NCBI GenBank assembly: GCA_022376925.1
Contig: JAIOJX010000026.1
Location: forward strand, 252,771,330-252,835,329
Direction of reading: 5' to 3'
DNA: 64,000 nt
Source of the DNA: Tragulus kanchil
Taxonomy: Eukaryota > Chordata > Mammalia > Artiodactyla > Tragulidae
Part shown: positions 230-64,000 of the stretch, in pieces
Layout: each line of letters starts with the position of its first letter
Position numbering within the stretch: the stretch's first letter is position 1
Position numbers and translations under genes: made by a program
The notes under the pieces: model-generated
Databases searched by the model: none
What the model was told of the DNA's origin: nothing
Seen by the model: the letters and a program-made list of their open reading frames with translations, nothing else

Positions 230-1180
230 AGTGGGCCCTGCAGGTTTGCCGGCGGGGCCAAGATCCGGAGGCGCGGACTCGTGAGCTGGGGAGCAGCAGG
301 GCTCGAGAGGAGCCCTTCCTCCGCCAGGCGAGGGCGGCCAACCAGGGCCGGGCCTTCAGCGCCCCGCTCCCAATGCCCGCACACTCGCCGGCCCACTCGC
401 CAGCCCGCGGGCCGACCAGTCGTAGCCGCTTACCGGTGGCGCCTCTCTGCCTCCCCGGGGGCAGCCCTTCAACGGTTGCCGCAGTCAGAGCACCACCCCG
501 CGGTGGGGCACGTCGAGCCCGCCCGCCGCTCTGGGAGCCGCGTAGCTGCACCGCTCTCGCGAGAGCTCGGCGGAGTCCGCGAGCTGCGGGGGAGGAGAAG
601 GGAGGGGCCTTTAACGGCGGAGGCCGGTTCTGCGCCGGATCCAGGAGCTGGGAGGACGCCATTGTGCTCCGCGGTCAACTGTTCCGCCTTTAGGGGCCCA
701 GAACTCCAAGGAGGAAGGCGGCGGTGTGATCGCTGGCAGCGGGACGAGCCTCGTTCAGTGCCAGGTCAGGAGCAGGGGTGAGACACTGCGGAGCTCGGAG
801 TTTTAGCTTTCCGGGCGGTGCTTCAGGTCTAGGCCGCGGGTGGGGGAGGGGGTGAAACGAAGTTCTGGCCGCGGGACGCCGACCGCCTTTCCTTCCCTTC
901 AAGACCCGGGGCCGTGGGTGGTTAAGGGCAGCCGGGCGCGGGCCTCCTCCGCCGGCGGCCTTTCGTCTCTGGGTGGAGTTTGTGACGAGTGGAGGGAGTA
1001 GGCTGCGTGTCTCCTTTACGGAAGTGCGTTTTCCTTATGGACGAGCGGCGGGCGAGGGGAAGGGGTTGGAGGCCGATTTTACCCCTTCCGCAGCCGCCTC
1101 TTCGGGAAAGCGGTACGGAGGGTCCTCTGGAACCCCGCGAGCCAGGTGGGTGCTGAGCGGGTGTTGAAGGCGGGGAGGCT
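230..1180. promoter_or_regulatory. MARCHF7: CpG island promoter of MARCHF7
   Basis: The stretch is GC-rich with frequent CpG in an otherwise AT-rich window, typical of a broadly expressed mammalian promoter. It surrounds the probable first exon. An AT-rich TATA-like stretch (tatttaaa, 220-227) lies just upstream, but CpG-island promoters rarely depend on one. An ETS-like site, ACGGAAGTG, lies near 1018-1026, downstream of the probable donor. The transcription start cannot be fixed from sequence alone. Confidence 0.75.
600..764 (+). other. MARCHF7: Probable non-coding exon 1 of MARCHF7
   Basis: GC-rich sequence in the CpG island ends at a good splice donor, CCAG|GTCAGG, with the exon border at 764. 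It holds no start codon that opens into the MARCHF7 frame, so it would be 5' untranslated sequence joined to the exon at 22044. The 5' boundary is a guess because no transcript evidence is available. An exact copy of its 3' part, including the donor, lies at 1742-1874. Confidence 0.45.
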
Positions 1181-2847
1181 CGAGTCGAAGGAACCTTACC
1201 AGCCCGTTGTGTGGGGTAAAGGTGTGGTTTGCTCGGTGCCCGTCCCAGGTATTCCGAGTATCGTGATAGTTGGGGATTTCTTTAGTACTGTAGTATATTG
1301 TGTGTGCTTCAAATAGAAATAGGCTGTGGTATGTATAAAAACGGACCTGTCGGCATAAGAAGTAAAATACGGAAGGCACTAGTAGTTGAATACAGGACTC
1401 CTTCATTTTGATGAAACTGCGTAGTAAAGATGAATGTGTACGCACCCCTAAAATACTTATTTTTTCCTACGAACAGATGTAAATATATGAGGAACATCTC
1501 TGTCTTGGTAATAATTGATAAACTGATCACAATTGCTGTCGTTTGACGCTGTTAAGAGCAGAGTGAAATTGAATTCATAAGACTTTTCCGATATTGTAGG
1601 ATACTTTAGGTATTTTTCGTTATTAAAATAATTTTAAAATCTCCTCCTTTCTTGCTTTAATTTACTCGTTTCTGAAACTAAGAAATAAGGTTAAAGGTGA
1701 ATTTTTTATTTTAAAAAATCAAACATTATGCTGTTGTGGCGGCGCCGGATCCAGGAGCTGGGAGGACGCCATTGTGCTCCGCGGTCAACTGTTCCGCCTT
1801 TAGGGGCCCAGAACTCCAAGGAGGAAGGCGGCGGTGTGATCGCTGGCAGCGGGACGAGCCTCGTTCAGTGCCAGGTCAGGAGCAGGGGTGAGACACTGCG
1901 GAGCTCGGAGTTTTAGCTTTCCGGGCGGTGCTTCAGGTCTAGGCCGCGGGTGGGGGAGGGGGTGAAACGAAGTTCTGGCCGCGGGACGCCGACCGCCTTT
2001 CCTTCCCTTCAAGACCCGGGGCCGTGGGTGGTTAAGGGCAGCCGGGCGCGGGCCTCCTCCGCCGGCGGCCTTTCGTCTCTGGGTGGAGTTTGTGACGAGT
2101 GGAGGGAGTAGGCTGCGTGTCTCCTTTACGGAAGTGCGTTTTCCTTATGGACGAGCGGCGGGCGAGGGGAAGGGGTTGGAGGCCGATTTTACCCCTTCCG
2201 CAGCCGCCTCTTCGGGAAAGCGGTACGGAGGGTCCTCTGGAACCCCGCGAGCCAGGTGGGTGCTGAGCGGGTGTTGAAGGCGGGGAGGCTCGAGTCGAAG
2301 GAACCTTACCAGCCCGTTGTGTGGGGTAAAGGTGTGGTTTGCTCGGTGCCCGTCCCAGGTATTCCGAGTATCGTGATAGTTGGGGATTTCTTTAGTACTG
2401 TAGTATATTGTGTGTGCTTCAAATAGAAATAGGCTGTGGTATGTATAAAAACGGACCTGTCGGCATAAGAAGTAAAATACGGAAGGCACTAGTAGTTGAA
2501 TACAGGACTCCTTCATTTTGATGAAACTGCGTAGTAAAGATGAATGTGTACGCACCCCTAAAATACTTATTTTTTCCTACGAACAGATGTAAATATATGA
2601 GGAACATCTCTGTCTTGGTAATAATTGATAAACTGATCACAATTGCTGTCGTTTGACGCTGTTAAGAGCAGAGTGAAATTGAATTCATAAGACTTTTCCG
2701 ATATTGTAGGATACTTTAGGTATTTTTCGTTATTAAAATAATTTTAAAATCTCCTCCTTTCTTGCTTTAATTTACTCGTTTCTGAAACTAAGAAATAAGG
2801 TTAAAGGTGAATTTTTTATTTTAAAAAATCAAACATTATGCTGTTGT
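632..2847 (+). repeat. Local tandem duplication 1 (CpG island and exon 1)
   Basis: Copy 1 is 632-1737 and copy 2 is 1742-2847, offset 1110 bp. Four extra bases (GGCG) sit at the joint. The copies appear identical otherwise. Confidence 0.95.
1742..2290. promoter_or_regulatory. Second copy of CpG island and exon-1 donor
   Basis: This is a copy, offset by 1110 bp, of the downstream part of the CpG island, including the probable exon-1 3' end and its donor at 1874. It starts abruptly at GCGCCGGAT inside the island, without the upstream promoter half. It is most likely the duplicated end of an assembly contig and not a second promoter. Confidence 0.6.
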
Positions 2848-4702
2848 TAAAAAGGCAGACACATACTGTAAGTAAATTTTTTTCTCTTCCATGAGCGGAA
2901 ATTGTGTTTCAGAAATGGGGTCAATATTTCATTTACAGCTCTACAGCATTTGTGAAACAGCAGTGGCATAGGAGGTATTAGAGACCAGATGATAAGGGTT
3001 TGGGCCTTGATTTTGCCATAATTAATTAACCTCTTCCTGTGGTTGAAGTGAGGATTAAATTAGATGTAGTAATGTGTTGCAGTCAAAACGCTGGGGGACA
3101 TAATACTTGCAAAGTGAACTTTTGATAAGTATAAACAATTGGAATTGATACTAAAGTCCGGTTTATATTCGTGAGTTTTTCAGATTTTACTCTCCCTGTA
3201 ATACGTTCCTCCTAGGATACTGAATGCTTCTCATACACACGATAATACATGCTTATGGAAGTTCTAGACTACCACAAGTTCTTACTTTTAGATGACAGCT
3301 TTTTACAGCTCTTCCTTTGCCCTTAATTACAACACGGATGTAGTGTGAGCTGGTCAGTAAGTACATTCTTGGGGGTTTTTTTGAAGTTACATGCTGGGTC
3401 AGAGGTCTCGATTAAGAAAGGTTGAAAATTCCTTTCTTATTTAAATACAGGTCATTTCTGTTTCTGTCACTTTGGCAAGAGAGCTTGATATCCTAGATAA
3501 AAGCACAAAGATTCCTGTGTATAGGCATGCACATATGTTGTCTGTGAAGATGTCAGATCATCGGCTTGTGTATGAAAAGACATCCATTTTAACATACGGA
3601 AGGCACTAGTAGTTGAATCCCGGACTCCCTCATTTTGATGAAACTGCGTAGTAAAGATGAATGTGTACGCACCCCTAAAATACTTATTTTTTCCTACGAA
3701 CAGATGTAAATATATGAGGAACATCTCTGTCTTGGTAATAATTGATAAACTGATCACAATTGCTGTCGTTTGACGCTGTTAAGAGCAGAGTGAAATTGAA
3801 TTCATAAGACTTTTCCGATATTGTAGGATACTTTAGGTATTTTTCGTTATTAAAATAATTTTAAAATCTCCTCCTTTCTTGCTTTAATTTACTCGTTTCT
3901 GAAACTAAGAAATAAGGTTAAAGGTGAATTTTTTATTTTAAAAAATCAAACATTATGCTGTTGTTAAAAAGGCAGACACATACTGTAAGTAAATTTTTCT
4001 CTTCCATGAGCGGAAATTGTGTTTCAGAAATGGGGTCAATATTTCATTTACAGCTCTACAGCATTTGTGAAACAGCAGTGGCATAGGAGGTATTAGAGAC
4101 CAGATGATAAGGGTTTGGGCCTTGATTTTGCCATAATTAATTAACCTCTTCCTGTGGTTGAAGTGAGGATTAAATTAGATGTAGTAATGTGTTGCAGTCA
4201 AAACGCTGGGGGACATAATACTTGCAAAGTGAACTTTTGATAAGTATAAACAATTGGAATTGATACTAAAGTCCGGTTTATATTCGTGATTTTTTCAGAT
4301 TTTACTCTCCCTGTAATACGTTCCTCCTAGGATACTGAATGCTTCTCATACACACGATAATACATGCTTATGGAAGTTCTAGACTACCACAAGTTCTTAC
4401 TTTTAGATGACAGCTTTTTACAGCTCTTCCTTTGCCCTTAATTACAACACGGATGTAGTGTGAGCTGGTCAGTAAGTACATTCTTGGGGGTTTTTTTGAA
4501 GTTACATGCTGGGTCAGAGGTCTCGATTAAGAAAGGTTGAAAATTCCTTTCTTATTTAAATACAGGTCATTTCTGTTTCTGTCACTTTGGCAAGAGAGCT
4601 TGATATCCTAGATAAAAGCACAAAGATTCCTGTGTATAGGCATGCACATATGTTGTCTGTGAAGATGTCAGATCATCGGCTTGTGTATGAAAAGACATCC
4701 AT
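2477..4702 (+). repeat. Local tandem duplication 2
   Basis: Copy 1 is 2477-3589 and copy 2 is 3594-4702, offset about 1117 bp. Copy 1 begins inside copy 2 of the previous duplication, so part of it occurs three times (1369, 2479 and 3597 for GGAAGGCACTAGTAG). Differences cluster at the joint: GAATCCCGGACTCCC in copy 2 against GAATACAGGACTCCT. Confidence 0.95.
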
Positions 4703-8120: not shown

Positions 8121-8535
8121 CTAGAATAGTACTCGGCTTAAAATTTAATACTTCCTTTGTGGTGTATAGATACTAACAGGTATAAACCAGCAGTGCTATA
8201 ATTTAGAAAAAGGGATTAATTTTAGTTCTTTATAGATTTTATTGTAAGATAAAATAATCTTTTCATCTGCCAGTAACTGTTTCCCTTAATTATCAAAGTT
8301 AGATCAAACACATTAAAGAAATTTTGGAGAAGAAAATAGAACCCACTCAGACGCAAGGGAAATGTTAATAATGGCTACTTTCTCCAATTTTGTATGCGTA
8401 TACTCATATAAGTAAGGTATATAAATTTTTTTTACAGTGATTATTCTCTGGTACCAAAATCTGAATGATTTTTAAAAATGTTTTTACTGTGTGTTAAAGA
8501 CAAATTTCAAATAATGAAAAAGCCAGAGTAATGTC

Positions 8536-8714
8536 TGTTCAGTCACTCAGTTGTGTCTATTTGTGATCCCATGGACCACAGCCAGCCAGGCTCCTCTGTC
8601 CGTAGGCTTCTCCAGGCAAGAATATTAGAGAGGGTTGCCATTTTCTCCTCCAGGGAATCTTTCTGACCCAGGTATTGAACCCACATTACAGACAGATTCT
8701 TTACTACTGAGCCC
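8536..8714 (-). mobile_element. Bov-tA SINE
   Basis: Reverse orientation: diverged Bov-A part at left (TGATCCCATGGACCACAGCC) and tRNA-derived head at right (TTCTTTACTACTGAGCCC). Repeated at 9641-9819. Confidence 0.88.
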
Positions 8715-8779
8715 AAAATAATGCCTGCTAAAGCTGTTTATATGAAAGGCTTTTACCATCTGACAGTATTGCTTAATAG

Positions 8780-8945
8780 TAGCTACCATTTGTTGACTAT
8801 ATACTGTTTGCTAGCAAAGCTCACGATAACACCTGTAAAATTGGTACTATTGTTTCCATTCTGTAGGTGAGGAAATTAAGCAATAGTGATATTAAGCCTA
8901 TAGTCACACAGAGACTCACAGACTTCAAAGCTTGTATTCCCAAAT
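8780..8945 (+). mobile_element. MIR SINE remnant
   Basis: Shows the MIR core pattern: ATAGTAGCTACCATTTGTTGA, GGTACTATTGTTTCCATTCT, then GTGAGGAAATTAAGCAA and AGTCACACAG, all diverged as expected for this ancient family. Confidence 0.85.
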
Positions 8946-9640
8946 ACTATATTTACAAATTGTTAGAAGTTGATGCATATGCTAAAAATCAGGCAATGCT
9001 TAGTTTATCTTGTCTATCATGTTTACCATTTTTCAAAAATTGCCATTGTTAATCAGTACATTTAAAAGTAATGTCTTAAGTATAGACTGTTAGTTTGAAT
9101 GGAGCTGGGGCCTTTTTGTTAATCTGGTCATTTGGTTTAGGACTCCTCTGTGACTCATGACATGCTGAACAAGGCTGTTACTGAAGGAATGGAACACCGT
9201 GATCTATAGAGTAATGGGAAAGGATATCATGTTATTTGAGAGATCCCTTTATAAGCAGAATCGTCAGTCAAATTAGTTCAGCCAATTTCACTTCATATTT
9301 TTTCTACTCTAGTTGTTTACGTCTGTAACTCTAATTAAAAGTATGATAGACTTTATTACTCCTTCCTCTGTCTCTTAAACCCTGTATTTGCCATCATCTG
9401 TTTTTCCATCCTTCATTCTGGAAAGTTTCTTCTGGCCTGTTTCCCAGCTTTACGGTTTTTTCACTTGAAATGTTAATAATGGCTACTTTCTCCAATTTTG
9501 TCGTATACTCATATAAGTAAGGTATATAAATTTTTTTTACAGTGATTATTCTCTGGTACCAAAATCTGAATGATTTTTAAAAATGTTTTTACTGTGTGTT
9601 AAAGACAAATTTCAAATAATGAAAAAGCCAGAGTAATGTC

Positions 9641-9819
9641 TGTTCAGTCACTCAGTTGTGTCTATTTGTGATCCCATGGACCACAGCCAGCCAGGCTCCT
9701 CTGTCCGTAGGCTTCTCCAGGCAAGAATATTAGAGAGGGTTGCCATTTTCTCCTCCAGGGAATCTTTCTGACCCAGGTATTGAACCCACATTACAGACAG
9801 ATTCTTTACTACTGAGCCC
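9641..9819 (-). mobile_element. Bov-tA SINE (duplicate of 8536-8714)
   Basis: The same insertion, carried in copy 2 of local duplication 3. It is not a separate insertion event. Confidence 0.88.
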
Positions 9820-9884
9820 AAAATAATGCCTGCTAAAGCTGTTTATATGAAAGGCTTTTACCATCTGACAGTATTGCTTAATAG

Positions 9885-10050
9885 TAGCTACCATTTGTTG
9901 ACTATATACTGTTTGCTAGCAAAGCTCACGATAACACCTGTAAAATTGGTACTATTGTTTCCATTCTGTAGGTGAGGAAATTAAGCAATAGTGATATTAA
10001 GCCTATAGTCACACAGAGACTCACAGACTTCAAAGCTTGTATTCCCAAAT
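9885..10050 (+). mobile_element. MIR remnant (duplicate of 8780-8945)
   Basis: Copy within local duplication 3. Confidence 0.85.
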
Positions 10051-10707
10051 ACTATATTTACAAATTGTTAGAAGTTGATGCATATGCTAAAAATCAGGCA
10101 ATGCTTAGTTTATCTTGTCTATCATGTTTACCATTTTTCAAAAATTGCCATTGTTAATCAGTGCATTTAAAAGTAATGTCTTAAGTATAGACTGTTAGTT
10201 TGAATGGAGCTGGGGCCTTTTTGTTAATCTGGTCATTTGGTTTAGGACTCCTCTGTGACTCATGACATGCTGAACAAGGCTGTTACTGAAGGAATGGAAC
10301 ACCGTGATCTATAGAGTAATGGGAAAGGATATCATGTTATTTGAGAGATCCCTTTATAAGCAGAATCGTCAGTCAAATTAGTTCAGCCAATTTCACTTCA
10401 TATTTTTTCTACTCTAGTTGTTTACGTCTGTAACTCTAATTAAAAGTATGATAGACTTTATTACTCCTTCCTCTGTCTCTTAAACCCTGTATTTGCCATC
10501 ATCTGTTTTTCCATCCTTCATTCTGGAAAGTTTCTTCTGGCCTGTTTCCCAGCTTTACGGTTTTTTCACTTTTGCTTAGTCTACTGGTAAATGCGTCTCA
10601 GTTTCCCAGTTGGCTAACATTAGGGCCATCTCTTCATCTGGTTCTGTTAATTGATAGCTCTTGAGGATGAATTTTTTTCTTGTTTTTTTTTTTTCTTGTT
10701 TTGTTTT

Positions 10708-11516: not shown

Positions 11517-13824
11517 AGTTGGAAGTTAAATGGGAACGGTAGGTTATAGTGTTCTGGATACTGGGGCAAAGAATTTAAAATTTGTTTTTAAGGTAATAGA
11601 AAACAGTTGAAAGTTTGGGGAGTGGTGCCAGTACTAGTAAGATGAAATAGAAATGAAGAAAATGTTTGGATTAATGATGAGTTCCCTTTAGACAAGGCCT
11701 AATGTGGTATTATTAGAGATAAACTTTGTTGGTTTATTTACAATAGGCCTCATATTCATGTCAAGTCTTGCTGAAAAGCTTTGTAAAATTCATTTTAAAT
11801 TTGTATTTTAGTATATGTTGTGTGAAAGCTTTCAGTTGCATGTGACTGAGATCTTGTTAACTTTGGTAACTTTGGGCACAGAATTTTGCATGTCAGGTAG
11901 TGACAGTATTCTTTGAGGCTTTTTACCTGGTCTAAGAAAGTTTAAGGTAAGTTTGAGGCAAGATTATTTCCTTAGAATAGATTTGAATTGTACTGTTTAT
12001 AGATAGGAGAGACTTCTTTTTGGGGCTGAAACGCAAAAACATGTAGCTGCCTTTAAAAAGCTCTACAGAGATTTCCTGTGAAGCCCTGTTGGATGAAATT
12101 GCCTATTTAAAATGTGGTCAGTTTTTTTTAGTACTTAACAAGTCAGAGGTTTATGAGATGACAGACTACTTAAGTTTTGGAGTTGGTATAAATATTTGTT
12201 TTCCACCACGTTCCTCATGGCAGTTACTATTAAAATGCCATAGGTAAGGGAACACTTGACAGTCACAGTAAGACTAGTTGGGTAAACTAGCAGTTAAATA
12301 TCCACTTCAGAGAATCTTCACAAGTTGAAAAGTTCAATACAATAAAAATCTCAAATATTGATTATAAGATTTTTGTAGCTTTGTGCGTTTCTTTCTGCAT
12401 TTGAAGTTGAAGCAAGTTTTAAAGAATGAAAAATACAACCTCTTGGAGCAGTCCATGCCTCAGCTTTCTCAGACATAGATGTGTTGATAAGGAACATGAG
12501 CACACAAGTCCCGTGGATCCAGATGGCTGGCATATGAGTGAGACTCAGTAAAAATTTGTGTGTTAATAATGGTAGCTTCATAGGAATGAGTGCTGTATGC
12601 AGATTGAGTGGTAAGGCATGCTGACAGGTGCATATCTCTTCAGCTCAAGCCTACTATCCTATCTGATTTCCCTTATAAAATGTAAGTTCAAATGTTAAAG
12701 TATTAATAATTTCAAGAGGTCAACAGTAGAGCTTTTAATGAAGCACAGGGTAGCATGTGTTTGCATAAGTAGTCACACATTTATAAAACCATCCTTGATG
12801 GTAAGTTTTTACCTTATCACCAAGAAGAGACCTCAGCTCTCCAACTCTGGAATCAAACTTAAAGAAATTTGTATTTTAAAGAAACTTCATAGTAGCAGAA
12901 GGAAAGTGAAAGGCCATTCTATTGACCATTGACGAAAAACTATACATACGAACTTTCTGTGCTTTACTGTTTAAGTCTTGATTAAAAGCATTGAGCTTCA
13001 GGATGCTTTTTCCCATCTCATCTGTTATTCTGGCTTGTACTTTTTCCATTAGAGCACTTTCAGCTCTTCTAAGTTATATGATTATTTATGTAGTTTGTTC
13101 TTGACTAGATCATAGCTTCTTTCTAGTCATTATCTCAGTAGCTTCAGTGTTGTCCCCTCTCTCTGTCCCTTTGTTCAGTATTAATTAATGTGCTTAGTGT
13201 GTGGGAAAAAAAATTTCTTCTTAAATGAATGAACTTGAAAAGATGCCTCATAGTACCTTGTAGAAGTTTTTCAAGGACTGCATATTTTATTTTTTACTAT
13301 TTTTTTGTGCTTTTGACCTACAACTTACACAACCAAATTACGTAAGTTTTCAGGTAGCACGTACATTGGTCAAAATTCAATCAGTTTATGTAGAGGAGTT
13401 GCCAAAAATAGTTTAATGCAGTATAAATTATAGGTCTCAGAGGACTTTGCCTCTTTGCCTTCTCTCAAGAGCTTTGCTTTTAGAGATTTCCTACTAGGTT
13501 AGTTTCATTCTGCAAGTAAGTCTAAGAGTAAGAATTGAGTATAAATAAAATCAAAGTAAACCACAAGAAGCACGATTAAGAAACATTATTGATAAAGAAA
13601 CAAATATATACCTGTATCTTTTATAAAAAACATTTTATTTCCCTGTTTAAAATCCTCAACAAATACAGCCCCTTATTTAGTATTTTTATAGCCTTCTTGA
13701 TAAAATAACAAATCTACTACTTGTTAAATCTTTTATGGACTTTTGCATATCAATATTTAACCATTAGTACTCTTTCTACTATTGTATGCCTTTTTAAAAT
13801 GTCCAATTCATAATTTACTTTTTT

Positions 13825-14133
13825 TTTAATTTTTGGCCTCTTATTGTTTGTTTTTTTAAAATTTATTTATTTTCATCCATCTTTATTCTTCGGCCTGTGT
13901 GCACCTCCCACTGCAGTGGCCTGTCTTGCTGCAGAACACTGGCTCTGGGTGCATGCGCTTCTGGCTCTGGGCACATACGTTCCATAGTGCTGGCTCAGAA
14001 TTGGACACATCCAATTCTGGACATCGGTCCAGCCACTCCTCGGCATGTGGGCTCTTCCCGGGCCAGGAATCGAACCAGTGCCCCCTGCACTGCGAGGTGG
14101 ACTCCTTACCCACTGGACCACCAGGGAAGTCCC
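13825..14133 (-). mobile_element. CHR-type tRNA SINE
   Basis: Full-length, with an imperfect target-site duplication CATAATT(T/C)AC on both sides. Confidence 0.92.
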
Positions 14134-14951
14134 ATAATTCACTTTTTTAATGAAAATTTTTGTATGGCTGTATAGTTTATAAAAATGAGGCAAGGAAAGA
14201 TTTATGTTATGTGACTGTACACTTTATCATCCAAACCAGGCCACTATTAAGAGAAAATACAAGTACTAGCTTCAGTGTTGTCCCCTCTCTCTGTCCCTTT
14301 GTTCAGTATTAATTAATGTGCTTAGTGTGTGGGAAAAAAAATTTCTTCTTAAATGAATGAACTTGAAAAGATGCCTCATAGTACCTTGTAGAAGTTTTCA
14401 AGGACTGCATATTTTATTTTTTACTATTTTTTTGTGCTTTTGACCTACAACTTACACAACCAAATTACGTAAGTTTTCAGGTAGCACGTACATTGGTCAA
14501 AATTCAATCAGTTTATGTAGAGGAGTTGCCAAAAATAGTTTAATGCAGTATAAATTATAGGTCTCAGAGGACTTTGCCTCTTTGCCTTCTCTCAAGAGCT
14601 TTGCTTTTAGAGATTTCCTACTAGGTTAGTTTCATTCTGCAAGTAAGTCTAAGAGTAAGAATTGAGTATAAATAAAATCAAAGTAAACCACAAGAAGCAC
14701 GATTAAGAAACATTATTGATAAAGAAACAAATATATACCTGTATCTTTTATAAAAAACATTTTATTTCCCTGTTTAAAATCCTCAACAAATACAGCCCCT
14801 TATTTAGTATTTTTATAGCCTTCTTGATAAAATAACAAATCTACTACTTGTTAAATCTTTTATGGACTTTTGCATATCAATATTTAACCATTAGTACTCT
14901 TTCTACTATTGTATGCCTTTTTAAAATGTCCAATTCATAATTTACTTTTTT

Positions 14952-15260
14952 TTTAATTTTTGGCCTCTTATTGTTTGTTTTTTTAAAATTTATTTATTTT
15001 CATCCATCTTTATTCTTCGGCCTGTGTGCACCTCCCACTGCAGTGGCCTGTCTTGCTGCAGAACACTGGCTCTGGGTGCATGCGCTTCTGGCTCTGGGCA
15101 CATACGTTCCATAGTGCTGGCTCAGAATTGGACACATCCAATTCTGGACATCGGTCCAGCCACTCCTCGGCATGTGGGCTCTTCCCGGGCCAGGAATCGA
15201 ACCAGTGCCCCCTGCACTGCGAGGTGGACTCCTTACCCACTGGACCACCAGGGAAGTCCC
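14952..15260 (-). mobile_element. CHR-type SINE (duplicate of 13825-14133)
   Basis: Same insertion, present again in copy 2 of local duplication 4. Confidence 0.92.
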
Positions 15261-49308: not shown

Positions 49309-49370
49309 GAACCAGCGCTCCTTGCACTGCAAGGTGGTGTCCTTACCCACTGGATCACCAGGGAAGCCCC
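49099..49370 (-). mobile_element. CHR-type tRNA SINE, complete
   Basis: Target-site duplication ATGAATATGTTTTA on both sides (49085-49098 and from 49371). Confidence 0.93.
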
Positions 49371-50202: not shown

Positions 50203-50796
50203 TGAGTAACATGTTCAAATTGGAGATGATGAGACTTCCCTGCATCAAGGTAGCAAAGGTCTCCTTGGACTAGTGGGGTTTCTTTCCTTTTGAAATAACC
50301 TGATTCTAAGCCTGTGGGATGGCTGTCATACCTGTGGCAGCCTTTTTTTCTCTGTGTCATGTTATGGCAGCCTCATGACCTTTATTAGTCACTGCCCTTG
50401 GATGTTAATTAAGATTAAATGAATGCTCAGCATAGTTCTTGACACTTAGCAAGGGCCCAGAAATGTTAGCTATTACCAAAATGAAAAACAACTTGACTCA
50501 CCTTCTGTTATACTTGCAATTGGATTGTTTGTGTTGTGTAGATAGGAAAACAGATAATTCAGTATATTATTTAAGAACATTGGATTTTGAAAGTTGGATA
50601 TGCTTAGGTTAGAATAATGACTCCAACGCTTAAACTATAGGATTCTGAGTAAGTCCTTAACATTGATTCTCCTTGTTACACACTTGTTCTAATTTTTAGG
50701 ACAATTTTCCATTTTAAAACCCTGTCTAAACATAAATACAAGGGGGGAAATGGGTTTACTTACACAAGACTTCTACCTGCTTAAATTAGAACCAGA

Positions 50797-50826
50797 AGTT
50801 CTAATTCTAGCTCTAGAATTAGAACT
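50797..50826. repeat. Perfect inverted repeat, 14-bp arms
   Basis: AGTTCTAATTCTAG, two bases, then CTAGAATTAGAACT. Repeated at 51937-51966 by local duplication 16. Confidence 0.9.
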
Positions 50827-50864
50827 AGAATAACCAAATGTTGAGTGTATATAGGACAGAAGGA

Positions 50865-51200
50865 ATATATAACAAAATTTGCCCTTTTAACCATTATTTA
50901 ATGTAGAATTCAGTGGCATTAAGTAGATTGGGAATGTTGTGTGACCATCACCACTATTTCCAAAGCTTAAGTCATCCTAAACAGAAATTCTGTATTAAGC
51001 ACTAACACCCACCCTTCTCACAAGCCTCTGGTAACTTCTGATCTACCTTTCTCTCTGACTTTGCTTATTCTACATGTTTCATATCAGTGAAATCATATAA
51101 TATTGTTGTTGTTGTTTGATCTTATCTGTGTCTTACTTTACTTAGCAGTTGTAGCATGTGTCAGGACTTCATTTTTATGGCTAATGGAAGTTATTTTATC
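50865..51200 (-). mobile_element. Old L1 3' end
   Basis: AATTCAGTGGCATTAAGTAG, GTGACCATCACCACTATTTC and AGTTGTAGCATGTGTCAGGA follow the reverse-complement order of L1 3' regions, as at 27318-27720. Confidence 0.75.
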
Positions 51201-51652
51201 CAAACAAGGCTGGATCCCTTTCTTTGCCTCATATTCTGTAGGGAAGATGCATTTATTCTATTATAGAAGGGCTTAGTATATGTTATCCCATCAAAGATAC
51301 TGGCCTGAGTCTATGTAGCTAGTTGTTTTCTCTGTTTTCATGGCATCTTGTCAAAATACTTAAGGAAGAAAGAAGTACAAATAATATTCCACTGTCAGTG
51401 TCCCTCATCAAAGTACATGAGTATCTGGGGAAAAAAAGAATACAAATAATAGGCAGAGGCTTAGATATTACAAGAATAGGGCATCAGGTGTTCCTGATTG
51501 CTATTTTAGGAGACATTACTGGTTTATGGTGGTGCTGTAGTCTCCCTGCTATCTCTTCCTTAAAGGTTTTCTATAGTCTAAGCTTAAAACCTACAAGGAA
51601 AAATGTTTTATAAAGACATATCAAGATTAAGCTTTCCTTGTGGTTTTACCAG

Positions 51653-51695
51653 GTTCTTCCCTAGAGGCTGTAACCACCTTGAACTTTGTAAAGAG
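51653..51695 (+). pseudogene. Truncated fragment of MARCHF7 exon 7
   Basis: After a normal-looking acceptor (TTTTACCAG) comes the first part of exon 7, but two bases are lost (ACCACCTTGAAC where the intact exon has ACCACCTGTGAAC). The sequence then jumps into a duplicated intron block at AATTCAGTA. It has no donor and would destroy the second zinc pair if used. It sits exactly at a duplication joint and is best read as an assembly edge. Confidence 0.8.
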
Positions 51696-52004
51696 AATTC
51701 AGTATATTATTTAAGAACATTGGATTTTGAAAGTTGGATATGCTTAGGTTAGAATAATGACTCCAACGCTTAAACTATAGGATTCTGAGTAAGTCCTTAA
51801 CATTGATTCTCCTTGTTACACACTTGTTCTAATTTTTAGGACAATTTTCCATTTTAAAACCCTGTCTAAACATAAATACAAGGGGGGAAATGGGTTTACT
51901 TACACAAGACTTCTACCTGCTTAAATTAGAACCAGAAGTTCTAATTCTAGCTCTAGAATTAGAACTAGAATAACCAAATGTTGAGTGTATATAGGACAGA
52001 AGGA

Positions 52005-52340
52005 ATATATAACAAAATTTGCCCTTTTAACCATTATTTAATGTAGAATTCAGTGGCATTAAGTAGATTCGGAATGTTGTGTGACCATCACCACTATTTC
52101 CAAAGCTTAAGTCATCCTAAACAGAAATTCTGTATTAAGCACTAACACCCACCCTTCTCACAAGCCTCTGGTAACTTCTGATCTACCTTTCTCTCTGACT
52201 TTGCTTATTCTACATGTTTCATATCAGTGAAATCATATAATATTGTTGTTGTTGTTTGATCTTATCTGTGTCTTACTTTACTTAGCAGTTGTAGCATGTG
52301 TCAGGACTTCATTTTTATGGCTAATGGAAGTTATTTTATC
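52005..52340 (-). mobile_element. Old L1 3' end (duplicate of 50865-51200)
   Basis: Copy within local duplication 16; one base differs (GATTGGG against GATTCGG). Confidence 0.75.
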
Positions 52341-52794
52341 CAAACAAGGCTGGATCCCTTTCTTTGCCTCATATTCTGTAGGGAAGATGCATTTATTCTA
52401 TTATAGAAGGGCTTAGTATATGTTATCCCATCAAAGATACTGGCCTGAGTCTATGTAGCTAGTTGTTTTCTCTGTTTTCATGGCATCTTGTCAAAATACT
52501 TAAGGAAGAAAGAAGTACAAATAATATTCCACTGTCAGTGTCCCTCATCAAAGTACATGAGTATCTGGGGAAAAAAAGAATACAAATAATAGGCAGAGGC
52601 TTAGATATTACAAGAATAGGGCATCAGGTGTTCCTGATTGCTATTTTAGGAGACATTACTGGTTTATGGTGGTGCTGTAGTCTCCCTGCTATCTCTTCCT
52701 TAAAGGTTTTCTATAGTCTAAGCTTAAAACCTACAAGGAAAAATGTTTTATAAAGACATATCAAGATTAAGCTTTCCTTGTGGTTTTTTACCAG

Positions 52795-52904
52795 GTTCTT
52801 CCCTAGAGGCTGTAACCACCTGTGAACTTTGTAAAGAGAAGTTGCAGCTTAACCTGGAGGATTTTGATATCCATGAACTACATAGAGCTCATGCAAATGA
52901 ACAA
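52795..52904 (+). CDS. MARCHF7: MARCHF7 coding exon 7: second half of RING-CH, copy 1
   Basis: The acceptor TTTTTACCAG precedes 52795 and the donor CAA|GTTAGT follows 52904. The exon is 110 nt, entered in phase 1 and left in phase 0. It encodes [19 protein letters not shown] followed by [21 protein letters not shown] supplies the last two zinc ligands of the RING-CH finger. Because 110 is not a multiple of three, including two copies would shift the frame, so only one can be used in a functional transcript. Confidence 0.94.
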
Positions 52905-53456
52905 GTTAGTATATTTTGCCTAATTTGGTAAGTGTCTATTCTGTGCTTAAAGGACAGCTCTAGAAGAAAAGATTAAGTCATGGTCAGAAAACCTACATTT
53001 TCTTTTACTGCATTAAGTATAATTTTTCTTTACTTTCCTATAACTTTTTGAAGATGAAAGGCAGAAAAGCAAGTGACAGGTTTTAAATTTATTAAGGTAA
53101 AATGTATTATATGGTTCCTATTCCTAAGTAAAACTGAAAATAAAGGGTTCAGAAAGTGATCGCCAAGTAGATATGCTAGTCTTACTTCCCTGGAGCTCAG
53201 TTGTAAATGCCTCTGAGTCCTGGAACGTGGTTGAAATACCAAGCCCTAGATCTACATCCTCTTTTTGCTTTTGATGTTAGGAATGGTTTTTATGTGTCTG
53301 TCTGCCCCCTGTTGATGTTCTTCTATCCTGGTTCCCTCCACTATCCTCATTGTTGCTTGCAGCTTTACATTGAACAACTTACGATATCTTCTATTCCAAG
53401 TTCACATTGTTTATAAACCTCTTTTCTTTTAGCATTTGTATCATATTCTCAGATTT

Positions 53457-53740
53457 TTTTTAAAAATGTTGGCCTCTTTTATCATTATTAATTAATTATT
53501 TATTTACTTATTTATTTTCATCTGTCTTTATTCTTTGGACTGTGACCCTCCCGTTGCTATGGCCTCTCTCTTTGCAGAGCACCGGCTCTGGGCACATGTG
53601 CTCCAGACTGCTGGCTCATAATTGGACACACCTGTCCAGCCGCTCCGCGGCATATGGGATCCTTCTGGGCCAGGGATCAAATTGGCACCCCCTGCAGTGC
53701 AAGGTGGCCTCTTTACTCACTGGACCACCAGGGAAGCCCT
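53457..53740 (-). mobile_element. CHR-type tRNA SINE
   Basis: Flanked by CTCAGATTT on both sides. Repeated at 54540-54823. Confidence 0.92.
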
Positions 53741-53876
53741 CCTCAGATTTCGTTTTGGGCTGTAGTCTCCTGCTATCTCTTCCTTAAAGGTTTTCTATAG
53801 TCTAAGCTTAAAACCTACAAGGAAAAATGTTTTATAAAGACATATCAAGATTAAGCTTTCCTTGTGGTTTTACCAG

Positions 53877-53986
53877 GTTCTTCCCTAGAGGCTGTAACCA
53901 CCTGTGAACTTTGTAAAGAGAAGTTGCAGCTTAACCTGGAGGATTTTGATATCCATGAACTACATAGAGCTCATGCAAATGAACAA
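53877..53986 (+). CDS. MARCHF7: MARCHF7 coding exon 7, duplicate copy
   Basis: This is a copy of exon 7 offset by 1082 bp, with identical splice borders. Only small intronic differences (a shorter T run before the acceptor) separate the blocks. The duplicate is incompatible with copy 1 in one reading frame. Confidence 0.6.
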
Positions 53987-54539
53987 GTTAGTATATTTTG
54001 CCTAATTTGGTAAGTGTCTATTCTGTGCTTAAAGGACAGCTCTAGAAGAAAAGATTAAGTCATGGTCAGAAAACCTACATTTTCTTTTACTGCATTAAGT
54101 ATAATTTTTCTTTACTTTCCTATAACTTTTTGAAGATGAAAGGCAGAAAAGCAAGTGACAGGTTTTAAATTTATTAAGGTAAAATGTATTATATGGTTCC
54201 TATTCCTAAGTAAAACTGAAAATAAAGGGTTCAGAAAGTGATCGCCAAGTAGATATGCTAGTCTTACTTCCCTGGAGCTCAGTTGTAAATGCCTCTGAGT
54301 CCTGGAACGTGGTTGAAATACCAAGCCCTAGATCTACATCCTCTTTTTGCTTTTGATGTTAGGAATGGTTTTTATGTGTCTGTCTGCCCCCTGTTGATGT
54401 TCTTCTATCCGGGTTTCCCCTCCACTATCCTCATTGTTGCTTGCAGCTTTACATTGAACAACTTACGATATCTTCTATTCCAAGTTCACATTGTTTATAA
54501 ACCTCTTTTCTTTTAGCATTTGTATCATATTCTCAGATT

Positions 54540-54823
54540 TTTTTTAAAAATGTTGGCCTCTTTTATCATTATTAATTAATTATTTATTTACTTATTTATT
54601 TTCATCTGTCTTTATTCTTTGGACTGTGACCCTCCCGTTGCTATGGCCTCTCTCTTTGCAGAGCACCGGCTCTGGGCACATGTGCTCCAGACTGCTGGCT
54701 CATAATTGGACACACCTGTCCAGCCGCTCCGCGGCATATGGGATCCTTCTGGGCCAGGGATCAAATTGGCACCCCCTGCAGTGCAAGGTGGCCTCTTTAC
54801 TCACTGGACCACCAGGGAAGCCC
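54540..54823 (-). mobile_element. CHR-type SINE (duplicate of 53457-53740)
   Basis: Copy within local duplication 17. Confidence 0.92.
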
Positions 54824-54835
54824 TCCTCAGATTTG

Positions 54836-55136
54836 TTTGTTTGGTTTTTTGTTTTTTTTTTTAAGAAAGATGGTATTTATTTTTATTTTTTTATATATAA
54901 ATTTTGTTCTTTTATTTTCATCCATTTTTATTCTTTGGCCTGGGTGGGCCTCCCATTGCAGTGGGCTCTCTTATTGTAGAGCACAGGCTCTGGGCGCATG
55001 CTCCAGAGCACTGGGTCCTAATTGGACAGACTGGTTCAGCTGCTCCACAGCACGTGGAATCTTCCCGGGCCAGGGGAGGAACCGGTGCCCCTTGCACTGC
55101 AAGGCAGACTATCCACTGGAGCACCAGGGAAGCCCT
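54836..55136 (-). mobile_element. CHR-type tRNA SINE, adjacent
   Basis: A separate, more diverged element right after the previous one. Ends GGAGCACCAGGGAAGCCC. Confidence 0.9.
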
Positions 55137-55451
55137 CTTTAGATTTTTTGATATGTATTGATAGCTACTCTCCTGAGAAGTGACTTGAGCACTAATTTTT
55201 GTTTTATTGAAGCTTTAACCTTTAAAAAAAAATTTTTGATATGCTTAGATAAAATGAAGAGTTCAGTATCTCCCACACGTTTTTCGGAGAATTCTGGTGG
55301 GAAAAAGACGTTAAAGGAGATTACAGGGTTGACTCGAGCATACTATCCAAGTGTACTTAGCGTATTTGTTATAGAGAGAGATAGGATGGTGGGAGAATGC
55401 TTCAGTAATTGAAAAACAGTTTTTAAGTAAAGGAGTAATGGACACCCCCAC

Positions 55452-55732
55452 CTTTTTTTTTTTTTAATTTGGTCACTTCTATTGGTCTCTCATTTATTTC
55501 CATCTTTGTTGTTTGACCTGTGTGGGCCTCCCATCACAGTGGCCTCAGTTGCTGCAGAGCACTGTCTCTGGGCATGTGCGCTCCAGAGCTCCGGCTCGGT
55601 AGTTGGACACATCGGTCCAGCCGCTTCGCGGCACGTGGGATCTTCCCAGGCCAGGGATCAAACCGCGGGCGCCCCTCGCACTGCAAGGCAGTGTCCTTAC
55701 CCACTGGACCACCAGGGAAGCCCCCCCCCCCC
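55452..55732 (-). mobile_element. CHR-type tRNA SINE ending in a C run
   Basis: The head end reads GGAAG followed by a run of 12 C, a slippage product of the normal GCCCC. The B-box region also has an insertion (AACCGCGGGCGCCCC). Confidence 0.9.
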
Positions 55733-56530
55733 TTTTTGTTTGTTTGTTTTTGATTGAGATAAAAGTTCATGTGAACATAAAAATCATATAAATGAAATCA
55801 ATACGATCCTGTATGGATACCTTTTACTTTTAAAATGTTAGAATAATGAATGCCCTTTGAAAAATGTGATTAAAACTACACTTTTAATAAAATATACAAA
55901 GATACAACATTTGTATATGATTTAAAGGATTCTCAGATCCTTTGAAGCTGATTATTTAGATCCAGGTTAAGAATCACTGATTTAATTAATGTGGACAATT
56001 GATATGGCACAAGTGCTACTCATACTAATTATTTTATTCTGTAATGAACCAGTTGTCCAAAGAGAATACCGTTTTCAGCAAGGAATTGTCTTAAATTCTG
56101 AGTGCTCAAATAGCTGAACATTGGTATTTTAAAGAACACAGGAAAGAGTATATAGAGATAGGATGGAAATAAAAATGTTTTTAATCCTCTCAAAATCAGA
56201 GTAGGTTTCAAAAGATGGCTTTCTTCTGCTGTCCTTCCTTTTCTAGGTAATGTCTCTTAAAGGTGGTGCTTTGGCATTTCAGTTCAAACAGAAATGTTTT
56301 CATGGTTCTCCAAGGATTAAATGACTCACAATCTTAAATAATTTATCAGTGTGAGGGTATGTTAGGTGGAGTTCATTCTGGGGTCTATGAACTACTCTTC
56401 TTTAAATGACTAGATTAATACAGTTTGATTTCCTCATCCAGTGGTTTCATATTTTCAAGGTGATAAATGTTAAAAATAAAAGAAACCTTCTGGACATAAT
56501 TTTCAGAAAAGGAGTAATGGACACCCCCAC

Positions 56531-56811
56531 CTTTTTTTTTTTTGAAGTTGGTCACTTCTATTGGTCTCTCATTTATTTCCATCTTTGTTGTTTGACCTGT
56601 GTGGGCCTCCCATCACAGTGGCCTCAGTTGCTGCAGAGCACTGTCTCTGGGCATGTGCGCTCCAGAGCTCCGGCTCGGTAGTTGGACACATCGGTCCAGC
56701 CGCTTCGCGGCACGTGGGATCTTCCCAGGCCAGGGATCAAACCGCGGGCGCCCCTCGCACTGCAAGGCAGTGTCCTTACCCACTGGACCACCAGGGAAGC
56801 CCCCCCCCCCC
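56531..56811 (-). mobile_element. CHR-type SINE with C run (duplicate of 55452-55732)
   Basis: Copy within local duplication 18, including the same C run and insertion. Confidence 0.9.
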
Positions 56812-57795
56812 TTTTTGTTTGTTTGTTTTTGATTGAGATAAAAGTTCATGTGAACATAAAAATCATATAAATGAAATCAATACGATCCTGTATGGATACC
56901 TTTTACTTTTAAAATGTTAGAATAATGAATGCCCTTTGAAAAATGTGATTAAAACTACACTTTTAATAAAATATACAAAGATACAACATTTGTATATGAT
57001 TTAAAGGATTCTCAGATCCTTTGAAGCTGATTATTTAGATCCAGGTTAAGAATCACTGATTTAATTAATGTGGACAATTGATATGGCACAAGTGCTACTC
57101 ATACTAATTATTTTATTCTGTAATGAACCAGTTGTCCAAAGAGAATACCGTTTTCAGCAAGGAATTGTCTTAAATTCTGAGTGCTCAAATAGCTGAACAT
57201 TGGTATTTTAAAGAACACAGGAAAGAGTATATAGAGATAGGATGGAAATAAAAATGTTTTTAATCCTCTCAAAATCAGAGTAGGTTTCAAAAGATGGCTT
57301 TCTTCTGCTGTCCTTCCTTTTCTAGGTAATGTCTCTTAAAGGTGGTGCTTTGGCATTTCAGTTCAAACAGAAATGTTTTCATGGTTCTCCAAGGATTAAA
57401 TGACTCACAATCTTAAATAATTTATCAGTGTGAGGGTATGTTAGGTGGAGTTCATTCTGGGGGTCTATGAACTACTCTTCTTTTAAATGACTAGATTAAT
57501 ACAGTTTGATTTCCTCATCCAGTGGTTTCATATTTTCAAGGTGATAAATGTTAAAAAATAAAAGAAACCTTCTGGACATAATTTTCAGAAAAGTAATTTA
57601 AGTGAAAATGTAAAGAAAATTTTAGTAAATCAGTTTCAGATTTTTTGAATGCTCCGTGGAATGTGATAGCCAGGTAGTTACTTGCTGAAGTTTGTACTAA
57701 GAACATATAGTTCTTAACGTCAGATGAGTTGATTACCAAAAATAGTACAATTTACATATACTTTACTGTGTAAAAATTTCAGGATTAGATTTTTT

Positions 57796-58070
57796 TTTAA
57801 TTTTGGCCTCTTTTTATTTATTTATTTATTTTTTATGTATTTATTTTCAGCCGTCTTTAATTCTTTGGCCTCTGTGGGCCTTCCACTGCAGCAGCCTCTT
57901 GCTACAGAGCACCAGCTCTGGGTGCATGCGCTCCAGAGCGCTGGCTCATAACTGGACACATTGGTCCAGCTTCTCCACGGCACATGGGATCTTCCCAGGC
58001 CAGGGATCGAACCAGTGCCCCTTGTACTGCAAGGTGAACTCTTTACCCACAGGACCACCAGGGAAGCCCC
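57796..58070 (-). mobile_element. CHR-type tRNA SINE upstream of exon 8
   Basis: Aged target-site duplication AGGATTAGATTTTT / AGGACTAGATTTTT. It lies 370 bp before the exon 8 acceptor. Confidence 0.92.
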
Positions 58071-58438
58071 AGGACTAGATTTTTAATAACACTATATTCC
58101 CAACTTGTATTCTTATCTTCAAAACAACAATTTTGAACGAAAGAACAGTTCTACCCACTAAAAATTTTTGTTTGAATGATCCAAGGAACAGTTAAGTTAC
58201 TCTGTTACCTTTATAAAAGAAGACTATGAAAATAGGATATCACACAGCTACTTCTATCACAGCATTAGTAAAATTACAATATTATGGAAGGTATTTCTTG
58301 GTTTAATAGATGGTGCTCTTACTAAGAAGTGGTTATGAACACATTTCCTCTAGTTTATCAGTGCACTGGGAATGTCAGTATCTTGTCTATTAATTTTTCA
58401 TTCTTCATATTCTTTTCTTATTTGCTTCCCTGTTGAAG

Positions 58439-58552
58439 GCTGAGTATGAGTTTATCAGCTCTGGTCTCTACCTAGTTGTGTTATTGCACTTGTGCGAACA
58501 AAGCTTTTCTGACATGATGGGAAATACAAATGAACCAAGCACACGTGTCCGA
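58439..58552 (+). CDS. MARCHF7: MARCHF7 coding exon 8, copy 1
   Basis: The acceptor TGTTGAAG precedes 58439 and the donor CGA|GTAAGT follows 58552. The exon is 114 nt, phase 0 to phase 0. It encodes [20 protein letters not shown] then [18 protein letters not shown]. The [10 protein letters not shown] stretch is hydrophobic but too short for a confident membrane helix; MARCHF7, unlike most MARCH proteins, is not a multi-span membrane protein. The exon is symmetrical, so the copy 1200 bp downstream could be included in frame. Confidence 0.94.
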
Positions 58553-58995
58553 GTAAGTAACCTTGAAGCAGGGGAAAGGGAAGGATGTGATACATCGAGT
58601 GTTTGTCTTGGAAAGCAGATTGTTTCATATGTTCATATTTCTATTTCCTTTGGGGTATATGGAAAGCTTTTATAAAAATAAGAATTTGTAGATTTTTAAT
58701 AGAAATTGCTGTCTTCGTATGTATCAAGGAGCGTAATTTTTCATAAAACTTTTAGAAAAACAAGTAATTTTCTAGCTCTTGAAGGTAATTGGAATATATT
58801 TCAGTGAAAAACAGGGACTTGGAAGTACTAAGGAAAATGCTCTTTTTAATTAAAATACAAGACTCAGTATTATCATTTAAAACCCTGAAGTTTGTACTAA
58901 GAACATATAGTTCTTAACGTCAGATGAGTTGATTACCAAAAATAGTACAATTTACATATACTTTACTGTGTAAAAATTTCAGGATTAGATTTTTT

Positions 58996-59270
58996 TTTAA
59001 TTTTGGCCTCTTTTTATTTATTTATTTATTTTTTATGTATTTATTTTCAGCCGTCTTTAATTCTTTGGCCTCTGTGGGCCTTCCACTGCAGCAGCCTCTT
59101 GCTACAGAGCACCAGCTCTGGGTGCATGCGCTCCAGAGCGCTGGCTCATAACTGGACACATTGGTCCAGCTTCTCCACGGCACATGGGATCTTCCCAGGC
59201 CAGGGATCGAACCAGTGCCCCTTGTACTGCAAGGTGAACTCTTTACCCACAGGACCACCAGGGAAGCCCC
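58996..59270 (-). mobile_element. CHR-type SINE (duplicate of 57796-58070)
   Basis: Copy within local duplication 19. Confidence 0.92.
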
Positions 59271-59638
59271 AGGACTAGATTTTTAATAACACTATATTCC
59301 CAACTTGTATTCTTATCTTCAAAACAACAATTTTGAACGAAAGAACAGTTCTACCCACTAAAAATTTTTGTTTGAATGATCCAAGGAACAGTTAAGTTAC
59401 TCTGTTACCTTTATAAAAGAAGACTATGAAAATAGGATATCACACAGCTACTTCTATCACAGCATTAGTAAAATTACAATATTATGGAAGGTATTTCTTG
59501 GTTTAATAGATGGTGCTCTTACTAAGAAGTGGTTATGAACACATTTCCTCTAGTTTATCAGTGCACTGGGAATGTCAGTATCTTGTCTATTAATTTTTCA
59601 TTCTTCATATTCTTTTCTTATTTGCTTCCCTGTTGAAG

Positions 59639-59752
59639 GCTGAGTATGAGTTTATCAGCTCTGGTCTCTACCTAGTTGTGTTATTGCACTTGTGCGAACA
59701 AAGCTTTTCTGACATGATGGGAAATACAAATGAACCAAGCACACGTGTCCGA
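59639..59752 (+). CDS. MARCHF7: MARCHF7 coding exon 8, duplicate copy
   Basis: This is a copy of exon 8 offset by exactly 1200 bp. The surrounding block, including the SINE at 57796-58070, is also repeated without any difference I noticed. Repeating this 38-residue segment is not known in the family. Confidence 0.6.
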
Positions 59753-61156
59753 GTAAGTAACCTTGAAGCAGGGGAAAGGGAAGGATGTGATACATCGAGT
59801 GTTTGTCTTGGAAAGCAGATTGTTTCATATGTTCATATTTCTATTTCCTTTGGGGTATATGGAAAGCTTTTATAAAAATAAGAATTTGTAGATTTTTAAT
59901 AGAAATTGCTGTCTTCGTATGTATCAAGGAGCGTAATTTTTCATAAAACTTTTAGAAAAACAAGTAATTTTCTAGCTCTTGAAGGTAATTGGAATATATT
60001 TCAGTGAAAAACAGGGACTTGGAAGTACTAAGGAAAATGCTCTTTTTAATTAAAATACAAGACTCAGTATTATCATTTAAAACCCTGAAATTGAACTCCA
60101 AAAACTGAAAGAGTATGGAAAATTAACTTTTTTTATTTGTTAGGGTCCTGTAAAAGATAACCAGTGTAGTAGTTTTTAAGCATCCATATTTCATCCATAT
60201 TTAGACTATTGGGTATTTACTCAATATGACTATTGCCTTGATTAAACCTGTAAGCTAGTTGTTTGTTAAGTGTTCTTAATTAAATGGTACTGTTACGGAA
60301 ATTTATACTCTACTGCCTTGCCCATTTTATGTAGCAGGGACTAGAGTGTGCATCTCACTACAGTATCATTCTGAACACCTGATATCTTGAAATGTATTCA
60401 TAAACATCCTTCAGACAGCTTTTTATATAAACATTCTCTTTGGTGATAAAAATTGGTAGAGTTTATGGTGAGGTAAAACATTTCTATTATATTTTGAAAA
60501 ATTATCAAATAACAAATTCAGTATATATATATAGATAGAACATTTTTCTGTAATCATGTAAGCATTATTCCTGTTAACCAGTTGTCAGATTATCATTCAG
60601 AGAAAAGAACTATCAAAAGCTTTCAGAGTTTGAGCAAAGATCTCTTGATTACTGAAAAGGCAACTTGTCTCTTTAGAATGAACCAGCCATATAAAGTATA
60701 TAATAAGGCATGTTGAATTCATACCTTTGTAAAAGGTGTATACATATAAAGTACAGAATTGTATGTCATAGTTCTAGGCAGGAAAATAATTGATGTTTTA
60801 AAATTGGCCACTGAAATTCTTTTGGTTCCAAATAACAAAGGTTTAATTTTCTCCATAGATTTTGGAAGTTGTTATATTTATGCAAGAAGACAGTGGTATT
60901 CATTGAATAAGATTATTGTATCTACTCCCAATTCCTATATGATTAATACATGATTTTTACATAACTGATAATGATGATATAAGATGTTTAAAAATTCATA
61001 TCCTTAAGTTTGTAATTCTTGATGTGGGCGGATTAAAAGCCCCATGTTTAAAGGCTTAAAATTATGTTTGACTTTAAAGTAGAAATGAATCTTATACTGA
61101 TTCTAGATCCATTTGCTACATTTAAACTACTGTATTTCTTTCTGCATTGTTTCTAG

Positions 61157-62040: not shown

Positions 62041-62182
62041 TATAGGTATTCTTCAGTTGGTTATTTTCTATACTCAACCTTCAAAATACTTGGACTATTA
62101 TACATAGTCTGCATAATGTTTTTACCTTTCGAGAAAGTTTAGCATACACTGAAATAAGGTTTGAAATGGACCTAATCCTCCT

Positions 62183-64000
62183 AAGAACTTTTTAATTACT
62201 TAAATATTCTTAGGCGTGGATTTTTGTCATTAAATTTATACAATCTTTTACGTTTTAGAAGGATTTAGAGGTAAAAATTGAGTAATGCAGTTTCACAATT
62301 TGAGTTAGTATGTGTGGAAATGGTATATGTAAAGGAATCAGAATGGTATAATAAAGTGGGATTCCATTGAGTATTCATCTTTCTTTCCTTCATACCATCT
62401 TAATTCAGATCCATCATGTTGGCTAATACAGAAATCTCTTTTTTATAAGTTATAATTTCTCAAATGTGATGAGTAATATGTTGCAGTATACATTTTCCCC
62501 AGATTGCTTTTTTTTTTGAACTAACATTCTTAACTTAGAATTTGGTTGTTTTTTTTTTCTAACTTTTATTTTACTTTTAACTTTTACAGAGTTTTGTTGT
62601 TTACAGATATATATGTTCTCAGATTAGTCATATATATAAGTATGTAGCAGCGTATGCTCCCAGCATGTGAATTAAAGGGAAAAGATGGAGTTGAAATACG
62701 TATATCCAAACTCAGGGTGAAAGATGTTATGGGCACTACTAGTTAACTCCTAAATACCTGAGTACTAATTTATTCTGAAAAGCTTTTTGATTGAATTTTC
62801 TTCTGTAGTGTTAATCCAGTAGAAAACCGAAACTCTGAAAAACTTACTTTTTTAGTTGAACATTTCTCCATAATATTATATAAAAGTTAATCATAAGATT
62901 TACTCTTCATGAACTAATGTATGCTTAATATCATGTATTTAAAATGAATTTTTAATTTCTGCAAGATAAATATGTGGAGACTAAAGTTTCAGCTATACAT
63001 GTTACATAATTTTTTTCTGATTCCATTTGCTGGGTGCTCTTAAATTGTCCAGTATTAAATACAAGGGTGTACTTTCATCATTTCTGCCCTTGACAATGGG
63101 GGAGATGCTGGTTAGATGTTTAGTGGACATCCATTTTCCTTCGCATGCACTTTATACAGTACATAGTCTTGTACTTACTGTGTCTTTAAAGACATTCGAG
63201 AATATTTTAAACTCTTGAGCCACTAGTGACTAAAATAAATCGAAGTCAGAAATGTTGCAAGAGTGATGAGTTTTTGACAACAAGAACTTTTTAATTACTT
63301 AAATATTCTTAGGCGTGATTTTGTCATTAATTTCAATCTTTTACGTTTAGAAGGATTTAGAGGTAAAAATTGAGTAATGCAGTTTCACAATTTGAGTTAG
63401 TATGTGTGGAAATGGTATATGTAAAGGAATCAGAATGGTATAATAAAGTGGGATTCCATTGAGTATTCATCTTTCTTTCCTTCATACCATCTTAATTCAG
63501 ATCCATCATGTTGGCTAATACAGAAATCTCTTTTTTATAAGTTATAATTTCTCAAATGTGATGAGTAATATGTTGCAGTATACATTTTCCCCAGATTGCT
63601 TTTTTTTTTGAACTAACATTCTTAACTTAGAATTTGGTTGTTTTTTTTTTCTAACTTTTATTTTACTTTTAACTTTTACAGAGTTTTGTTGTTTACAGAT
63701 ATATATGTTCTCAGATTAGTCATATATATAAGTATGTAGCAGCGTATGCTCCCAGCATGTGAATTAAAGGGAAAAGATGGAGTTGAAATACGTATATCCA
63801 AACTCAGGGTGAAAGATGTTATGGGCACTACTAGTTAACTCCTAAATACCTGAGTACTAATTTATTCTGAAAAGCTTTTTGATTGAATTTTCTTCTGTAG
63901 TGTTAATCCAGTAGAAAACCGAAACTCTGAAAAACTTACTTTTTTAGTTGAACATTTCTCCATAATATTATATAAAAGTTAATCATAAGATTTACTCTTC
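62183..64000 (+). repeat. Local tandem duplication 20 (runs off the window)
   Basis: Copy 1 is 62183-63281; copy 2 starts at 63282 and continues past the end. Several bases are lost just after the joint (GCGTGATTTTGTCATTAATTT against GCGTGGATTTTTGTCATTAAATTT), lowering the offset from 1099 to about 1092 bp. Confidence 0.95.

Follow-up and report, generated by a model that had tools for sequence, protein, structure and literature searches.

The MARCHF7 locus

The window, a 64-kb stretch of DNA considered here at its full length, carries MARCHF7 and, along it, a series of directly duplicated units (Table 1). Residues 1 to ~619 of the protein are found once, in order, on the + strand at 22056–59764, second copies included, by tblastn with the MARCHF7 proteins of musk deer, goat and porpoise, which gives approximate exon ends; the last residues (beyond ~619) were not found within the window by the same search. 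The extra MARCHF7 matches are confined to second copies of the duplicated units. The first-pass annotation of this DNA had placed the duplications along one gene.

An open frame of 385 residues (38352–39509) matches MARCHF7 of many mammals (279 proteins at E ≤0.001), with those of musk deer, goat and sheep (85–86% identity) being the best named matches among the 120 of the 279 that were listed; the top match carries no name. Pfam and PDB searches with the reading frame of the large exon gave no match up to an E of 1. The large exon (38352–39503) has 86–87% identity to each of goat, musk deer and porpoise, a divergence above that expected for pecorans and possibly attributable to a tragulid host or to residual consensus error. 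The GC content is 0.575 over positions 1–2000, compared with 0.30–0.46 in the remaining 2-kb bins, a GC-rich start that would suit a MARCHF7 promoter lying in a CpG island together with a non-coding first exon.

Scattered in the window is a ~140-bp interspersed element, which resembles a tRNA-derived SINE, at four places sharing 90–93% identity; the last two of these are the two copies inside pair 18. The six tRNA calls made by ARAGORN represent three loci, each seen twice because it lies inside a duplicated unit, and these loci are presumably SINE remnants. Some of the open-reading-frame translations in the window are also SINE-like, and these, taken with the protein matches, make a ruminant host probable. 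A search of the window against Rfam returned no family at gathering score.

Table 1 Coordinates of the duplicated pairs, MARCHF7 coding exons and repeat-like loci in the window
Feature	Position	Second copy	Joint	Strand	Evidence	Remarks
Pair 1	632–2847		1742		Self-BLAST	Copies 632–1737 and 1742–2847; 100% identity
Pair 2	2473–4702		3590		Self-BLAST	Unit shares 375 bp with unit of pair 1
Pair 3	8359–10571		9467		Self-BLAST	
Pair 4	13139–15395		14267		Self-BLAST	
Pair 5	15995–18183		17100		Self-BLAST, alignment	Aligned copies 18 bp apart
Pair 6	17939–20025		18985		Self-BLAST, global alignment	Shortest period (1046)
Pair 7	21488–23693		22590		Self-BLAST, tblastn	First coding exon doubled
Pair 8	23331–25610		24471		Self-BLAST, global alignment	Copies identical
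Pair 9	27686–29859		28773		Self-BLAST	
Pair 10	30931–33151		32045		Self-BLAST	
Pair 11	34844–37027		35932		Self-BLAST	
Pair 12	38794–41008		39906		Self-BLAST, alignment, tblastn	Copy 2 starts inside large coding exon
Pair 13	41485–43622		42551		Self-BLAST, global alignment	Copies identical
Pair 14	45192–47419		46305		Self-BLAST	
Pair 15	47039–49311		48173		Self-BLAST	
Pair 16	50552–52840		51692		Self-BLAST	
Pair 17	52670–54838		53756		Self-BLAST, tblastn	Exon of residues 541–578 doubled
Pair 18	55421–57593		56500		Self-BLAST	
Pair 19	57685–60089		58885		Self-BLAST, tblastn	Longest period (1200); copies identical; exon of residues ~579–619 doubled
Pair 20	62183–64000		63282		Self-BLAST	Copy 2 runs past window end
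MARCHF7 coding exon	22056–22208	23155–23307		+	tblastn	
MARCHF7 coding exon	33634–33825			+	tblastn	
MARCHF7 large coding exon	~38400–39503	39905–40605		+	tblastn	Second copy partial
MARCHF7 coding exon	44781–44954			+	tblastn	
MARCHF7 coding exon	52794–52907	53876–53989		+	tblastn	
MARCHF7 coding exon	~58442–58564	~59642–59764		+	tblastn	
Interspersed element	20957–21097					
Interspersed element	21276–21411					
Interspersed element	55584–55726	56663–56805				Inside pair 18
tRNA-like locus	14054–14128				ARAGORN	
tRNA-like locus	28032–28106				ARAGORN	
tRNA-like locus	41873–41946				ARAGORN	

Twenty head-to-tail pairs

Self-BLAST of the window (words of 28, identity ≥90%, E ≤1e-20) yields 28 forward pairs, comprising 20 head-to-tail pairs, five secondary matches and three matches between interspersed elements. 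All twenty of the direct duplications of ~1.1 kb claimed in the first-pass annotation are thereby recovered, and every claimed joint is matched, with a largest offset of 8 bp (at 56500, claimed at 56508). The period measured in global alignments is 1046–1200 bp (mean 1108.7, SD 32.2) and the copies are 98.9–100% identical in self-BLAST, in agreement with the length of 1.05–1.2 kb and the near identity described there. Aligned copies are spaced by −12 to +18 bp, and the window contains no N, joints included. Four of the 20 pairs (1, 8, 13 and 19) are without any difference. Pair 20 crosses the end of the window, and the bases compared are the first 726 of copy 1 and the first 719 of copy 2, that is, its start side only. 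Tandem Repeats Finder, for which the longest period covered is 500, reported nothing in the window at score 200.

The five secondary matches (starting at 1363, 16839, 22232, 45926 and 51530) are neighbouring duplicated units that overlap each other, by 169–383 bp. Summed over the periods, second copies make up ~21.8 kb, or ~34% of the window; the uncorrected sum of 22,174 bp, leaving 41,826 bp after deduplication, takes in the whole 1099-bp period of the twentieth pair, of which 719 bases lie within the window. Because near-exact kilobase matches are so numerous in 64 kb, chance is excluded.

Taken as given, with its N-free joints, the sequence reads as real tandem duplication by a biological process copying ~1.1 kb at a time. 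This would demand twenty events within one gene, all of nearly the same length, practically without age and affecting unrelated stretches, and we regard it as vanishingly improbable; much the same holds for the version in which the cell itself produced twenty uniform ~1.1-kb tandem copies in the very recent past and left small deletions at each copy junction.

Differences between copies

In global alignments, 78 events are present in 16 pairs and none in the other four. Nine of them fall 5 bp or less from a copy end, in a zone where the aligner sets its edge arbitrarily, and were set aside; the 69 counted comprise 22 substitutions and 47 indels. Of these 69, 55 are no more than 150 bp away from a copy end, compared with 27% expected, and the remaining 14 are mid-copy. 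Facing each joint are the piece ends at which copy 1 stops and copy 2 starts. On the start side, all 18 deletions are in the joint-facing copy 2, and on the end side 14 of 22 are in the joint-facing copy 1 and 8 in copy 2. Taken joint by joint, the start side has deletions at seven joints, in copy 2 alone at each; the end side has them at 11, in copy 1 alone at five, in both copies at three and in copy 2 alone at three. The end-side polarity is less clean than that of the start side. The computed p-values (1e-19, and 2e-5 by Fisher's test) are overstated, owing to the clustering of events. A second aligner, used without the edge exclusion, gives 45 substitutions and 41 indels, the two counts differing by how each aligner splits gaps; 18 of these 41 indels are in homopolymer runs of at least 3, a share expected of noisy long-read consensus.

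Deletions placed mostly at the joint-facing ends therefore match a consensus that is thin and error-prone where pieces end. Real tandem duplication would require differences spread regardless of the joint, which is not what the alignments give, and it also has against it the mostly joint-facing deletions and a second copy that is frameshifted beside the joint.

That second copy belongs to pair 12; nowhere else does coding sequence extend to the end of a copy. Copy 2 contains a stop and frame changes within its first 140 bp, beside the joint, and needs two frames for tblastn coverage; in copy 1 the frame is open and agrees with goat and porpoise MARCHF7. The joint-facing copy is therefore the damaged one. 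Consensus quality is thus unequal between copies, in the mostly joint-facing deletions as in the broken frame of the large exon.

In the large exon, one difference of 3 bp falls on a residue that goat has and porpoise lacks, and so some of the differences between copies need not be errors. This difference, together with the mid-copy events, is what a haplotype (heterotype) false duplication, with both alleles kept, could leave behind. Allelic differences would, however, spread evenly and the copy length would vary, and the pairs without any difference and the gathering of events near copy ends make such an origin most unlikely.

Origin of the pairs

On the evidence of the sequence, the duplications are very probably an assembly artefact, in which overlaps were left unmerged by whatever program, and not biology; the gap-filling and polishing-chunk routes considered below are included in this judgement as sub-cases. 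The first-pass annotation had proposed unmerged overlapping ends, a reading supported by the end-clustered differences, their joint-facing polarity, the damaged joint-facing coding copy and the single ordered MARCHF7. The scaffold would have been laid out as successive long-read consensus pieces of 1.8–5.9 kb, each overlapping its successor by ~1.1 kb; with the overlaps left unmerged and the pieces written end to end, every overlap would be printed twice. The differences gather near the joints, and the piece boundaries themselves are not marked in the sequence.

The 19 pieces span 1848–5877 bp, while the SD of the period is 3% of its mean. Overlap between neighbouring units, as in the five places above, is natural for tiled pieces. 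The three smallest unit-to-unit steps (731, 734 and 741 bp) form a floor; their clustering has a probability of 0.007 under a floor-plus-exponential model, in a test chosen after the data were seen.

Near-identical tandem copies at N-free joints, with poor sequence at the ends, would also arise if sequence still carrying ~1 kb of untrimmed flank had been inserted during gap filling or contig scaffolding. Short fillers should then alternate with long contigs, which the 19 piece lengths do not cleanly do, and in the five cases of overlapping units the flanks at either end of a piece run into each other, leaving no gap to fill; we consider this route possible, if unlikely. Fixed-size chunks of a polishing program, overlapping by ~1 kb and left unstitched, would account for the constant overlap length, but would give equally spaced joints where the observed spacing is irregular, and are a very unlikely source.

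The consequences of unmerged overlaps would concern data quality only. As written, the MARCHF7 model has doubled or broken exons, and anyone using this assembly for gene annotation, for counts of exon duplications or for the dating of repeats would be led astray.

A candidate assembler

The likeliest source, on a judgement that is about evenly balanced, would be a wtdbg2-like long-read graph assembler with 1-kb nodes, the consensus step of which failed to join adjacent edges. In wtdbg2, adjacent edges share one node, which the consensus program must align and trim; bins are 256 bp, and nodes overlap by at most 256 bp. Each piece would correspond to an edge linking nodes of fixed length, as in wtdbg2, an arrangement that the constant overlap, the overlapping overlaps and the step floor fit. 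The overlap (1108.7, SD 32) is near one 1024-bp node and constant along the contig, 1024 bp being the stretch of read from which wtdbg2 is described as deriving each point (PMC7506008).

In a toy model with randomly phased 256-bp bins and at least three reads needed, overlaps are 1091 (SD 45) with 10 reads and 1133 (SD 32) with 15 at a scale of 0.957, compared with 1109 (SD 32) observed; the scale is fitted to the observed 735-bp floor, the read numbers are free and other settings miss. It is by this fitted model alone that the excess over 1024 bp might be explained. No lattice of 200–340 bp was found in the 19 piece lengths (best R of 0.353, compared with a null median of 0.409), where read-to-read jitter may mask a lattice of bins. 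If the wtdbg2 reading is true, ~1.1-kb tandem pairs with joint-facing deletions would be a simple screen for other long-read assemblies.

Comparison with known systems

The closest class is homotype false duplication, which in the account given by the Vertebrate Genomes Project adjoins contig boundaries and is caused by sequencing errors, and which in one hummingbird assembly was traced, according to a figure legend, to a bug in the FALCON algorithm (PMC8081667). Such duplications are described as having low read depth and, most often but not always, a gap between the copies (PMC9516828). The present pairs probably work like them: near-identical copies, at what would be piece boundaries, have unequal consensus quality. 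In homotype false duplication, ends are kept from merging by errors in the sequence or by a bug of the assembler, as the relevant passages of both reports have it (PMC8081667, PMC9516828). The duplications in the first of these reports are about read-length (PMC8081667), whereas the length here is constant at ~1.1 kb, and, unlike the usual case in the second (PMC9516828), no gap in the form of N separates the copies. Owing to the absence of a gap, we speak of a likeness to the class rather than of membership. Twenty pairs in 64 kb and their uniform length are unusual beside the homotype false duplications as portrayed in those passages (PMC8081667, PMC9516828).

For wtdbg2 itself, no published account of this failure was found in the PMC literature, judged mainly by title and the start of the abstract. 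Redbean (wtdbg2) is noted as often duplicating some sequence when circularising bacterial contigs (PMC6966772), a behaviour that is related to yet different from the present pairs. The window resembles a wtdbg2 layout in its ~1-kb units shared between successive pieces of variable length and in the lower bound on unit spacing, and departs from it in a mean of 1109 rather than 1024 and in piece lengths that show no lattice, unless read-to-read jitter masks one.
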